Assembly: GCF_024105735.1 (NCBI RefSeq)
Contig: NZ_JAAAML010000003.1
Span: 186,001 to 250,000, forward strand
Source: Parahoeflea alexandrii
GTDB lineage: Bacteria > Pseudomonadota > Alphaproteobacteria > Rhizobiales > Rhizobiaceae
Length of the DNA: 64,000 bases
Direction of reading: 5' to 3'
Part shown: one piece after another, positions 21,195 through 26,567 of the stretch
How positions within the stretch are numbered: the stretch's first letter is position 1
Layout: the number at the start of each line of letters is the position of its first letter
Program-made: the position numbers and the translations under genes
The notes under the pieces: model-generated
What the model was told of the DNA's origin: nothing
What the model saw: the letters and a program-made list of their open reading frames with translations, nothing else
Databases searched by the model: none

Positions 21195-22934
21195 ATGTGG
21201 GATACCATCAAGAAACCCGAGGCGCTTCGTGCCCAGGCGCAATTGACGTCCGGTGTTCGCGCCGGGCTTTCCTGGGCGAAGATCGAGGATGAACTGCTCG
21301 ACGGCCTCCCGGACGGTGGCCTCAACATAGCTTATGAAGCAGTCGACAGGCATGTCGCCAACGGCTTCGGCGCTGACACGGCGCTCCGGTGGCTGGGCAA
21401 GTCCGGTGATCGCCGGGATCTCAACTATGCCGATCTGGGCGCTGCGTCGTCCCGCTTTGCATCAGTGCTTGCCGGGCACGGTCTCGGCCGCGGGGCCCGG
21501 GTGTTCTCGCTGCTGGGGCGCCAGCCCGAGGTTTTCTACGCCGCACTCGGCACACTCAAGGCCGGCATGACCTTCACGCCCCTGTTTTCCGCCTTCGGGC
21601 CCGAACCGATCCAGACCCGCATGGAGATCGGCGAGGCTAACGCGCTGGTGACCACCGAAGCCATCTACCGGCGCAAGATCGAGCCCTGGATCAAGGACAT
21701 CCCCTCGATGCGGCTGGTGCTGATTGTCGGCGATGACGCGCCGGAAGGCTGCGTCGCGCTTGGTCCAGCCATGGAACAGGCATCCCCAGAGTTCGACACG
21801 GTGCACACGCAGCCCGAAGACGAGGCGCTGATTCACTTCACCTCGGGCACCACCGGCCGCCCCAAGGGCGCCGTCCACGTCCACAAGGCGGTGGTCAACC
21901 ACGCTTCCACCGGCCGCTACGCGCTGGAGCTGAAGCCCGGCACGGTCTACTGGTGCACCGCCGATCCGGGCTGGGTCACCGGCACGTCCTACGGCATCAT
22001 CGCGCCGCTTGTGAACCGCGCCACCCTGGTCATCGACGAGGCCGAGTTCGACCTCGAGCGCTGGTACGCCACGCTTGAGCGCGAGAAGGTCGAGGTCTGG
22101 TACACCGCACCCACTGCCATCCGCATGATGATGCGGGCAGGCAGGGACGCCGCCAAGGGCCACGACTTCTCGGCTCTGAGGTTTCTTGCTAGCGTCGGCG
22201 AGCCGCTCAATCCCGAGGCCGTGGTCTGGGGCAACGAGGTCTTTGGCCTGCCGTTTCACGACAACTGGTGGCAGACCGAGACCGGCGGCATCATGATCGC
22301 CAACACCATGGAAATGGATATCAGGCCCGGCTCGATGGGAATGCCCCTGCCGGGGATCGAGGCGGCGGTGGTCACCGTCGAAGGCGGCAATGTGAAGCCC
22401 TGCAAACCCGGCCAAATCGGCGACCTCGCATTGAAGGCTGGCTGGCCGTCGATGATGCGGGCCTACCTGCATGAGGAGGCGCGCTATAAAAAGACCTTTG
22501 CCGGCGACTGGTACATCTCCGGCGACCTCGCGATGCAGGACCAGGACGGCTATTTCTGGTTCGTCGGCCGGGCCGACGACCTGATCAAGTCGTCGGGGCA
22601 CCTGATCGGGCCGTTCGAGGTCGAAAGCGCCCTGATCGAGCACGAGGCGGTGGCCGAGGCCGGCGTCATCGGCCTGCCGGACGAAACCGCCGGCGAGGTG
22701 GTCAAGGCCTATGTCTCGCTCAATCCGGGCTTTGAACCGTCTGAGGAGCTCGAGAAATCGATCCGCGGCCATGCCCGCAAGACGCTTGGCCCTGCGGTCG
22801 CCCCGCGCACCATCGAGTTCCGCAAGACCCTGCCGAAGACACGATCGGGCAAGATCATGCGCCGCCTGCTCAAGGCGCGCGAACTGGGCCTGCCCGAAGG
22901 CGACATTTCCACGCTGGAGACGGACGAGTCATGA
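21195..22934 (+). CDS. acsA: Acetate-CoA ligase, short AcsA type
   Basis: The 579-residue enzyme of the AMP-forming acyl-CoA synthetase family has the P-loop [10 protein letters not shown] at 216-225, WWQTETGG with the tandem Trp that narrows the pocket to acetate-size acids, and the C-terminal RSGKIMRR with catalytic Lys553. It is shorter than the usual 650-residue Acs and resembles the Bacillus AcsA form. The ATG follows GGGAGGA. Its stop codon overlaps the next ATG, so it is the first gene of a four-gene coupled operon with E1, E2 and ACP. In that context it could charge CoA, or the carrier protein, with a small acyl group; that is inference. Confidence 0.88.
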
Positions 22935-24937
22935 CCAAGGCCGAAAAGACCCACCTGACGCATGCCCATGTCACCGAGCTGCTCAAGGGCATGATCCGCA
23001 TTCGCCGTTTCGAGGACAAATGCGCAGAGCTTTACACGCAGCAGAAAATCCGCGGCTTCCTGCATCTCTATGATGGCGAGGAGGCGATCGCCATGGGGTT
23101 GATCTCCGTTCTCGGCGAAAACGACCGCATCGTCGCCACCTACCGCGAACATGGCCATGCCCTGGCCCGCGGCGTGCCGATGCCGCAAGTGATGGCCGAG
23201 ATGTACGGCAAGGCCGAGGGCTGCTCCGGCGGTCGCGGTGGCTCCATGCATCTGTTTCATGCGCCTAGCAACTTCTTCGGCGGCAACGCCATTGTGGGTG
23301 GCGGCTTGCCCCTGGCGGGCGGGCTGGCGCTCGGCGACAAGCTTGCGGGCGCCGATGGTGTGACCGTCTGTTTCTTCGGCGAAGGTGCGGTCGCCGAAGG
23401 TGAGTTCCACGAAACCATGAACCTCGCCGAACTCTGGGATGTTCCGGCGCTGTTTGTCTGCGAGAACAATGGCTACGCCATGGGAAGCGCGCTGGCGCGC
23501 ACGGAATCCGAGACCGATATCCACGCCAAGGCAGCCGCCTACGGCATTGCCTCGGAAGCGGTCGACGGCCAGGACGTGGTCGCGGTCGAAGCCGCCGCCC
23601 GCCGTGCCATCGCCAGCATTCGCGAGACCGGTAGACCCTATTTCCTTGAGTGCCGCACCTATCGCTTCCGCGCCCATTCGATGTTCGACGCCCAGCTCTA
23701 CCGCGACAAGGACGAGATCGCCAGCTTCCGCGCCAAAGGGCCGATCGTCCGGTTCCAGAGTTGGCTGCTGGAAAACCACCTGCTTCAGGACAGCGACATC
23801 GCTCGCATCGAGGCCGAAGTTGACGCTGAAATCACGGAGGCCGTGGCCTTCGCCGAAGCCGGAACCTGGGAGCCGGTGGAAACGCTGACCCGCCATGTCA
23901 TCGCCGACGATGCGCCGCCGCCGCCGGTTCCGGCTGCGCCATCGGGAAAATCCCAGGAGATCACCTACCGCGAGGCGGTCAAGCAGGCGATCCGCGACGC
24001 CATCATCCGCGACGAGCGGGTTTTCCTGATGGGCGAGGATGTCGGTGCCTATGGCGGCTGCTACGCGGTAACCAAGGGGCTGATGACCGAGTTCGGCGAG
24101 ACCCGCATCCGCGACACGCCCTTGTCCGAATCCGGGTTCACCGGCTTCGGCATCGGCGCCGCGGCAGCGGGCTTGCTACCCATCGTCGAACTGATGACGG
24201 TCAATTTCTCCCTGCTGGCGCTTGACCAGATCATGAACACCGCCGCCACCATCCGCCACATGTCCGGCGGGCAGTTCGGCGTGCCCCTGGTGATCCGCAT
24301 GGCGACCGGTGCGGGCAAGCAGCTCGCGGCCCAGCACTCGCACAGCCTCGAGGGCTGGTACGCCCACATTCCCGGCCTTCGGGTGCTGGCACCGGCCACG
24401 GTCGAGGATGCGCGCGGCATGTTGTGGACGGCGCTGCAGGACCCGGACCCGGTGCTGATTTTCGAAAACGTCATGCTCTACAACATGACCGGCACGCTGG
24501 ATGACGCGGCGGGTGCGGTGGACATCGACCGCGCCGCGGTCCGGCGCGAGGGCAGGGATGTGAGCCTGATCACCTATGGCGGCTCGCTGTGGAAGACGCT
24601 GGAAGCAGCCGAGGCGCTCAGCAAAGAGGGCATCGAAGCCGAAGTGATCGACCTGCGCAGTCTGAGGCCGCTGGACGACGCCACCATCATGGCCTCGATT
24701 GGCCGCACCCGCCGGGCGGTCATCATCGACGAGGGATGGCGCAGCGGCTCGATCTCCGCCGAGATCATCGCCCGGATCAACGAACAGGCCTTCTGGCATC
24801 TCGACGCGCCGCTGGGACGGGTCTGCGCCAAGGAAGTGCCGATCCCCTATCCGAGCCACCTCGAAGCTGCATCGATCCCGCAGGTTGCCGACATTGTCGC
24901 CGCGGCCCGTGCCGCGATGGGCAGGGGCAAGAGCTGA
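22931..24937 (+). CDS. 2-oxoacid dehydrogenase E1, alpha and beta subunits fused
   Basis: The 668-residue protein joins an E1-alpha domain (about 1-325: [21 protein letters not shown], and the thiamine diphosphate motif from GEG at 150-152 to ENN at 178-180) by a Pro/Ala linker ([11 protein letters not shown]) to an E1-beta domain (about 340-668: [33 protein letters not shown], and [15 protein letters not shown]). It decarboxylates a 2-oxoacid and acylates the E2 lipoyl group. In the cofactor motif the usual GDG is GEG, a conservative change at the Mg ligand. The start overlaps the acs stop (ATGA) and its stop overlaps the E2 start. Whether pyruvate, acetoin or a branched acid is the substrate cannot be read. 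Confidence 0.92.
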
Positions 24938-26325: not shown

Positions 26326-26567
26326 ACCGCGACACGCTCTACGCCGTTTTCATTGAAGAACTGGTCAACGTGGCCCCCGACCTCGATGCCGGCACGATCA
26401 ACAGGGATGACCAGTTGCAGGACGATCTCGAGCTCGATTCCATGGACGTGCTCAACCTCGTGGCGGCACTTCACGACAGGCTGGGGATCGATATTCCTGA
26501 GGATGACTACCTCCAGATCGAGACGCCGGCCAAGGCCGCGGACTATCTCGCTGCCAGGTGTAAATAA
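26322..26567 (+). CDS. Acyl carrier protein in the 2-oxoacid dehydrogenase operon
   Basis: This 81-residue acidic protein has the acyl carrier fold with DLELDSMDVLNLV, where Ser40 in the DSM motif is the expected 4'-phosphopantetheine site. LGIDIPEDDYLQIET is the usual helix III region. It differs from the housekeeping AcpP (DSLD), so it is a specialised carrier. It overlaps the E2 stop codon, which implies co-translation with the E1/E2 enzyme. Its acyl load is unknown; transfer from E2 or from the AMP-forming ligase are both possible. No ketosynthase or phosphopantetheinyl transferase is nearby. Confidence 0.9.
   Translation: MNRDTLYAVFIEELVNVAPDLDAGTINRDDQLQDDLELDSMDVLNLVAALHDRLGIDIPEDDYLQIETPAKAADYLAARCK

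Follow-up and report, generated by a model that had tools for sequence, protein, structure and literature searches.

Pyruvate dehydrogenase (PDH) is the textbook enzyme in which coenzyme A (CoA) accepts the acetyl group, and its E1 alpha-beta/E2 type, mitochondrial and found in many bacteria, is the closest described system to an operon of Parahoeflea alexandrii. The operon lies in a stretch of 64,000 nucleotides (the window; assembly GCF_024105735.1, contig NZ_JAAAML010000003.1, positions 186,001 to 250,000 of the forward strand), where it occupies positions 21195-26567 and encodes, in order, an AMP-forming acetate-CoA ligase (acs), a fused E1 2-oxoacid dehydrogenase, an E2 dihydrolipoamide acyltransferase and a dedicated acyl carrier protein (ACP). 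With E1 alpha-beta/E2-type PDH, which provides its closest solved relatives, it shares the E1 and E2 domains, thiamine pyrophosphate (TPP), the lipoyl arm and the E2 active-site residues; it differs in that E1 is often fused, no dihydrolipoamide dehydrogenase (E3) is encoded, a ligase stands at the head and an ACP at the end, and the E1beta sequences form a distinct clade. The ligase has the family score and intact motifs of AcsA (PRK04319), but here it heads a PDH-ACP operon, and in three genomes it is paired with the ACP alone. The branched-chain 2-oxoacid dehydrogenase that feeds FabH also supplies an acyl carrier by decarboxylating a 2-oxoacid; that route to acyl-ACP runs through FabH from an acyl-CoA product, we know of no ACP in its operon, and the E1 described here is of the pyruvate type.

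The low-oxygen and dormancy islands known as lxa, or controlled by OsdR or mycobacterial DevR, are a second point of comparison, their published main texts describing genes similar to those near the operon in several loci. Universal stress proteins are named there for the Burkholderia lxa locus (PMC9733578), and the regulon of OsdR, a DevR-like regulator of Streptomyces, is described as including universal stress proteins, pyruvate phosphate dikinase (PPDK) and alcohol dehydrogenase (PMC5069765). The term "acyl carrier" is absent from the main texts on these islands (PMC9733578, PMC3759415, PMC5069765), whereas the operon here ends in an ACP, and the main text of PMC5069765 likewise has no occurrences of "dehydrogenase E1" or "dihydrolipo". 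Full-text searches of one open-access library turned up no account of a PDH operon that has an ACP as its last gene. The enzymes are all of known families; their combination, conservation and possible acceptor appear to us to be new.

The initial annotation had described four genes overlapping end to end by one to four bases, and both the coordinates and the order hold, with successive overlaps of 4, 1 and 4 bases (Table 1). The identities it gave to the four products are borne out by family models. The ligase scores 855.4 bits against the NCBIfam acetate--CoA ligase model PRK04319 (cut-off 729), and the two parts of the fused E1 exceed the cut-offs for PDH E1alpha (TIGR03182, 421.5 bits against 393.85) and E1beta (PRK09212, 406.3 bits against 321). 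The nearest solved relatives of E1 in a PDB search were mitochondrial pyruvate E1 proteins, with 293 bits for the beta part and 239 for the alpha part; chains named 2-oxoisovalerate dehydrogenase reached only 210 and 130 bits, respectively. The single lipoyl domain, the E3-binding domain and the 2-oxoacid_dh catalytic domain of E2 are all above Pfam cut-offs, and its nearest solved relatives are acetyl-transferring E2 proteins, while its scores lie below every NCBIfam cut-off (top model TIGR01349, 242.9 bits against 445). From these similarities pyruvate would be the substrate of the complex and acetyl-CoA its product. The ACP matches PF00550 (42.7 bits, cut-off 20.8) and falls below every NCBIfam ACP cut-off, the housekeeping AcpP type included (top score 43.7 bits against 71); its PDB search returned general ACPs only, among them complex I ACPs that scored no better than other kinds. 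Four PP-binding matches in total were found in the genome. The operon is without an E3 gene, as had been noted at the outset, and two E3 genes above the family cut-off (589.7 and 587.3 bits) are available elsewhere in the genome.

Comparison with other genomes showed that the operon is more than a quirk of one genome; it is a conserved module found across many unrelated bacteria and is often plasmid-borne. A genome scan with an E1beta alignment, one genome per species, returned at least 590 relatives, of which the best 80, those closest to the query, were used; these and 10 plasmid loci make up the 90 profile-scanned loci. Among the best 80 of the at least 590, the ACP gene immediately follows the E2 gene in 69 loci and the remaining 11 end at a contig edge, with no misses, and the ligase gene precedes E1 in 77 (two are cut by contig ends and one is replaced). 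The initial annotation had proposed conservation of the four-gene order as its check and failure of the ACP to be conserved with the other genes as its refutation; the ACP is conserved with them, with one true exception in our other samples (G649, below). E1 is fused in 53 of the 90 loci, and in the same 90 no E3 of the type tested adjoins the operon: when one of the genome's two E3 proteins served as query, three matches at 27-32% identity resulted. All 10 scanned plasmid loci likewise show the ACP after E2, and the ACP adjoins E2 in four further plasmid loci. Plasmid records with the identical order belong to Leisingera, Tropicibacter, Sulfitobacter, Methylocystis, Sinorhizobium, Burkholderia savannae, Streptomyces, Cupriavidus and Rhodococcus; the same order was found by tblastn in Photobacterium, where the record annotates no genes at that place, and by profile in Azospirillum and Ciceribacter. 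E1 identity is at least 60% in 29 of 172 records of the plasmid collection, and the next highest value is 45.9% among the 60 matches listed. The loci are spread over Pseudomonadota, Actinomycetota, Candidatus Binatota, Thermodesulfobacteriota and Campylobacterota, those of the last three being metagenome bins.

The E1beta clade and the ACP also travel together in taxonomic samples. A class sample of 289 genomes contained 17 E1beta-clade matches, spread over 16 genomes and scoring at least 579 bits (next match 421.5), and ACP matches at 18 places in 17 genomes, and 15 of the 17 E1beta matches had an ACP within 3 kb on the same contig. The E2-ACP end of G127 sits at the edge of a different contig, and the ACPs found without a high-scoring E1beta were those of G270, where E1beta is cut at a contig end, and G188, which carries an acs-ACP pair. 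Among 299 Pseudomonadota of a phylum sample, the E1beta clade and the ACP (at least 79 bits) occurred in the identical 11 genomes, all adjacent, and every other ACP match scored 57.5 bits or less; G000, G068, G185 and G194 belong to both Pseudomonadota samples. The clade is distinct, its members scoring 549-649 bits across these two samples, with the phylum search listing matches at E<=1e-145 only. In 296 Actinomycetota, nine genomes had an E1beta scoring at least 537 bits (the next match had 432.5), and the ACP was present in all nine and adjoining in eight; ACP matches fell at 12 places in 11 genomes, with E2-ACP at apparent contig edges in G827 and G818. The ACP matches examined beyond those of operons were in G188, G611, G616, G270, G622, G649, G827 and G818. 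Six of 41 near relatives, the genome itself included, had the ACP, all within its own genus (6 of 18), so the module comes and goes.

Active-site residues are conserved throughout the module. The phosphopantetheine serine of the ACP (Ser40) is kept in 80 of 80 sequences and the TPP-site motifs of E1 (G[ED]GAxxEGxFHE and ENN) in 91 of 91. The ligase keeps its double Trp, which we take to be the acetate pocket, in 84 of 84 sequences and its catalytic Lys in all 83 that could be read at that position, the roles of the other active-site residues being assumed in the same way. In E2 the lipoyl Lys is present in 71 of 71 readable rows (10 of 81 gapped) and the catalytic His in 79 of 79 (2 of 81 gapped), the motif Asp being kept in 75 of these 79 and otherwise replaced by Gly (three) or His (one). 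This Asp of HRxxDG is Gly in Leisingera (L007) and His in Sinorhizobium fredii (L010), both of which retain the catalytic His. Any acyl group carried by the ACP would most likely be acetyl, because E1 is nearest to pyruvate E1 and the ligase keeps its double Trp.

Our favoured reading, offered tentatively, is that the operon supplies acetyl groups at low oxygen, drawing on both acetate and pyruvate to charge the dedicated ACP. The ligase would convert acetate to acetyl-AMP and acetyl-CoA, and E1 would decarboxylate pyruvate, the acetyl group moving to the lipoyl arm of E2, which the shared E3 of the cell would reoxidise. Both acetyl streams would converge on the dedicated ACP in its holo form, whose phosphopantetheine arm would be loaded either straight from acetyl-dihydrolipoyl-E2 or via acetyl-CoA; transfer from E2 to the ACP is chemically plausible because E2 already gives acetyl to the phosphopantetheine thiol of CoA. 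The outcome would be an acetyl-ACP pool separate from free acetyl-CoA, produced under FNR control as oxygen falls. The ACP as acceptor, the acetyl identity, the oxygen regulation and the use of the product are all parts of this scheme that we infer.

Loci in which the parts of the operon are separated bear on the source of the acetyl group. In three genomes of one family (G188, G611 and G616) an ACP of the clade lies 46-56 bases after the acs stop, with no E1 or E2 beside the pair (within 18.5 kb in G188 and within the 3.2 kb available for G611 and G616) and no clade E1beta at operon-level scores in the G188 genome. Apart from Arg550, which is replaced by Asn or Gly, the ligase and ACP motifs of these pairs are intact, and in a quick acs tree that included three duplicated rows their ligases fall among the operon ligases, at a position that is not exactly settled. 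In an Alkalilacustris locus (L035) a phosphoenolpyruvate (PEP) synthase gene (1125 bits, cut-off 598) takes the place of acs, overlapping the start of E1, and is followed by E1-E2-ACP. The acs-ACP pairs and the ppsA-E1-E2-ACP order together indicate that the ACP stays with either acetyl source. Divergent from the G188 pair is a gene (L159:10794-13583) whose product resembles an ADP-forming acetate-CoA ligase and ends in an acetyltransferase-like stretch, a type of protein that acetylates Acs. What looked like an E2-ACP fusion in L069 was rejected as an assembly frame break: one open frame contains the E2 N-terminus and the ACP, a different one the E2 C-terminus.

The region upstream of acs suggests FNR-dependent expression of the operon at low oxygen. 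The window contains two exact TTGAYNNNNRTCAA sites, where shuffled sequences lead one to expect 0.16, and one of them is a perfect FNR/FixK-type box that precedes the ligase gene (Table 1). Across the 250-base regions before acs, an exact box occurs in 21 of 82 and a box with at most one mismatch in 47 of 82, compared with shuffle means of 0.03 and 1.26, although the loci are related to each other and the shuffles overstate their independence. These 82 come from 91 regions, the window included, nine having been dropped where no acs was found or too little sequence was present. The FnrL-like protein encoded in the window is a plausible regulator of the operon rather than a member of it. A DevR-type box precedes acs in 2 of 11 actinobacterial loci (shuffles: mean 0.27, maximum 2).

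Table 1. Location of the operon, its putative control elements and other features, in window coordinates.
Feature	Position	Strand	Remarks
Pyruvate phosphate dikinase (PPDK)	12199-14928		1369 bits; 6 kb upstream of operon
Perfect FNR/FixK-type box, TTGACGCACATCAA	21132..21145	+	63 bases before acs start
acs, AMP-forming acetate--CoA ligase, 579 aa	21195..22934	+	WWQTETGG and SGK motifs intact
Fused E1 alpha-beta, pyruvate-type 2-oxoacid dehydrogenase, 668 aa	22931..24937	+	Family models, TPP-site motifs
E2 dihydrolipoamide acyltransferase, 462 aa	24937..26325	+	One lipoyl domain, E3-binding domain, catalytic domain with DHRASDG
Dedicated acyl carrier protein (ACP), 81 aa	26322..26567	+	ELDSMD phosphopantetheine site
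TsoY family protein	26713-27927		516 bits to NF047644
Second exact FNR box	34246..34259	+	Near FnrL-like gene and oppositely oriented ABC/HlyD genes; context only
FnrL-like Crp/Fnr regulator, CX2CX7C and internal Cys	34408..35133	+	225.6 bits to FnrL model, below its cut-off of 300

Several observations weigh against an acetyl-supply module of this kind. The Arg of the ligase that aligns with R584 of S. enterica Acs, which we take to be a CoA contact, is present in 84 of 84 sequences, so the ligase is expected to use CoA and its likely product is free acetyl-CoA. The initial annotation had proposed a carrier whose acyl group derives either from a 2-oxoacid or from acetate, and while this fits both the acs-ACP and the E1-E2-ACP variants, the conserved Arg counts against direct loading of the ACP by the ligase. 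Mirror-tree partial correlations over 63 loci (0.38 for ACP and acs, 0.08 for ACP and the E2 catalytic domain) do not favour E2 as the donor, though sequence length and the shared tree may account for these figures. No FNR box, even with one mismatch allowed, is present in 35 of the 82 upstream regions, and no acetyl-ACP-using neighbour recurs, the commonest Pfam families reaching 4 of the 141 proteins scanned (of 187). The ACP profile also scores 81 bits on the second ACP of G622, which lies in a FabF-ACP-FabG-FabI cluster; the profile is therefore imperfectly specific, and a relative of the operon ACP works in acyl chemistry. In G287 the contig stops 200 bases past E1beta and no such ACP was found elsewhere in the genome. 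Finally, the actinobacterium G649 has acs-E1-E2 on a 78-kb contig (L228) with no ACP in the 8 kb past E2. It came from the wider sample, not the best 80, and is the one true exception to ACP adjacency, showing that adjacency of ACP and E2 is not absolute. Its two ACP genes lie elsewhere, one adjoining a 90-residue E2 piece (L180:7553-8107), perhaps a broken second copy, and the other alone, flanked by PEP-utiliser, CBS/BON and cation-ATPase genes. Because an ACP is still present in that genome, G649 leaves our estimate for the acetyl-supply module unchanged.

The genes on either side of the operon in the window do not belong to it. A cupin gene 90 bases upstream, which the initial annotation thought might be part of the operon, and the TsoY-family gene downstream were both rejected, homologues of each being present at 0 of 99 related loci (E<=1e-8); the window itself was recovered as a positive control in this test, and five of the loci are only about 1.8-3.2 kb long.

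Stress genes were also found in the surroundings, although the genes closest to the operon are diverse. In 961 kb of flank, markers chosen from annotated plasmid relatives (universal stress proteins, PpsA or PPDK, Hsp20, cation ATPase and others) were seen around 31 of 80 loci, compared with 3 of 30 control 20-kb stretches (600 kb), which were taken only from operon-bearing genomes with long contigs, where 30 of an intended 40 stretches existed. In Streptomyces and Rhodococcus the operon sits amid universal stress proteins, PPDK or PpsA, with a GAF sensor kinase and a response regulator near it in Rhodococcus sp. DK176, and PPDK/PpsA-type genes are near the operon in several other loci too. 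The window gave no match to the universal stress protein queries, though PPDK and the FnrL-like gene are present.

Other neighbours were seen in particular loci. Beside the FnrL-like gene of the window, on the opposite strand, are ABC-transporter, FtsX and HlyD-type genes (29895-34409); Tropicibacter (L012) likewise has HlyD/ABC genes next to its operon, and the Sulfitobacter stretch (L015) has a HlyD gene at its edge. In Sulfitobacter SK012 (L015:4596-9720), genes for PhaC, FabI, a fused enoyl-CoA hydratase/phosphotransacetylase (MaoC-Pta) and acetate/propionate kinase (AckA) form a row directly upstream that looks like a fermentative or polyhydroxyalkanoate (PHA)-linked acyl route. A large AMP-ligase-type protein, for which a link to lipid synthesis is possible, is encoded in six loci (L069, L010, L022, L044, L061 and L084), no more than roughly 10 kb away from the operon; the one in L069 (16964-19795) has an ACP-like motif near its start, seen by eye, and an acyl-AMP ligase domain, found in a scan of L069 only. 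L224 has two AMP-binding genes.

These neighbours bear on the alternative that survives best, which we nevertheless think unlikely: that an ordinary second PDH and an acetate ligase make acetyl-CoA in low oxygen, and the ACP is co-expressed for fatty-acid or lipid synthesis without ever contacting E2 or the ligase. The CoA-contact Arg of the ligase, the lipid or PHA genes near some loci (Sulfitobacter SK012 and the six with a large AMP-ligase-type protein), the fab-cluster relative of the ACP in G622 and the position of the G649 ACPs apart from acs-E1-E2 all suit it. The lipid genes are not constant neighbours, however, whereas the ACP of the best 80 loci follows E2 wherever there is room for it.

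Improbable in our judgement, and ranked lower, is a structural or regulatory role, in which holo-ACP would bind the complex or the ligase and sense acyl/CoA state without passing acetyl on, as mitochondrial ACP does for its LYR partners. Co-occurrence, and the retention of the ACP with either half of the operon, would suit a binding partner equally well, and complex I ACPs are among the PDB profile relatives, with scores no better than those of other ACP kinds; the invariant serine points rather to a working arm, though a regulatory arm is still compatible with it. That the ACP serves specifically to supply octanoyl groups for lipoylating the operon's E2 via LipB, which takes octanoyl-ACP, seems very improbable, since despite the direct adjacency of ACP and E2 it leaves the presence of acs unexplained and the three acs-ACP genomes have no E1 or E2 alongside and so no lipoyl protein in the unit.

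If acetate and pyruvate do feed the dedicated ACP, a stronger claim can be framed, which we regard as doubtful: that the physiological acetyl acceptor of the complex is this ACP and not CoA, with the ligase working in parallel, which would make the operon a CoA-independent acetyl hub used by several phyla under oxygen limitation. Annotated plasmid records give these genes plain names only (pdhA, acsA, acyl carrier protein), and the pattern is therefore easily missed. The FNR box and the stress-island neighbours indicate when to look for its activity, and the near-constant presence of the ACP implies one of two things: acetyl groups can leave the complex bound to a carrier protein, or the ACP controls the complex.

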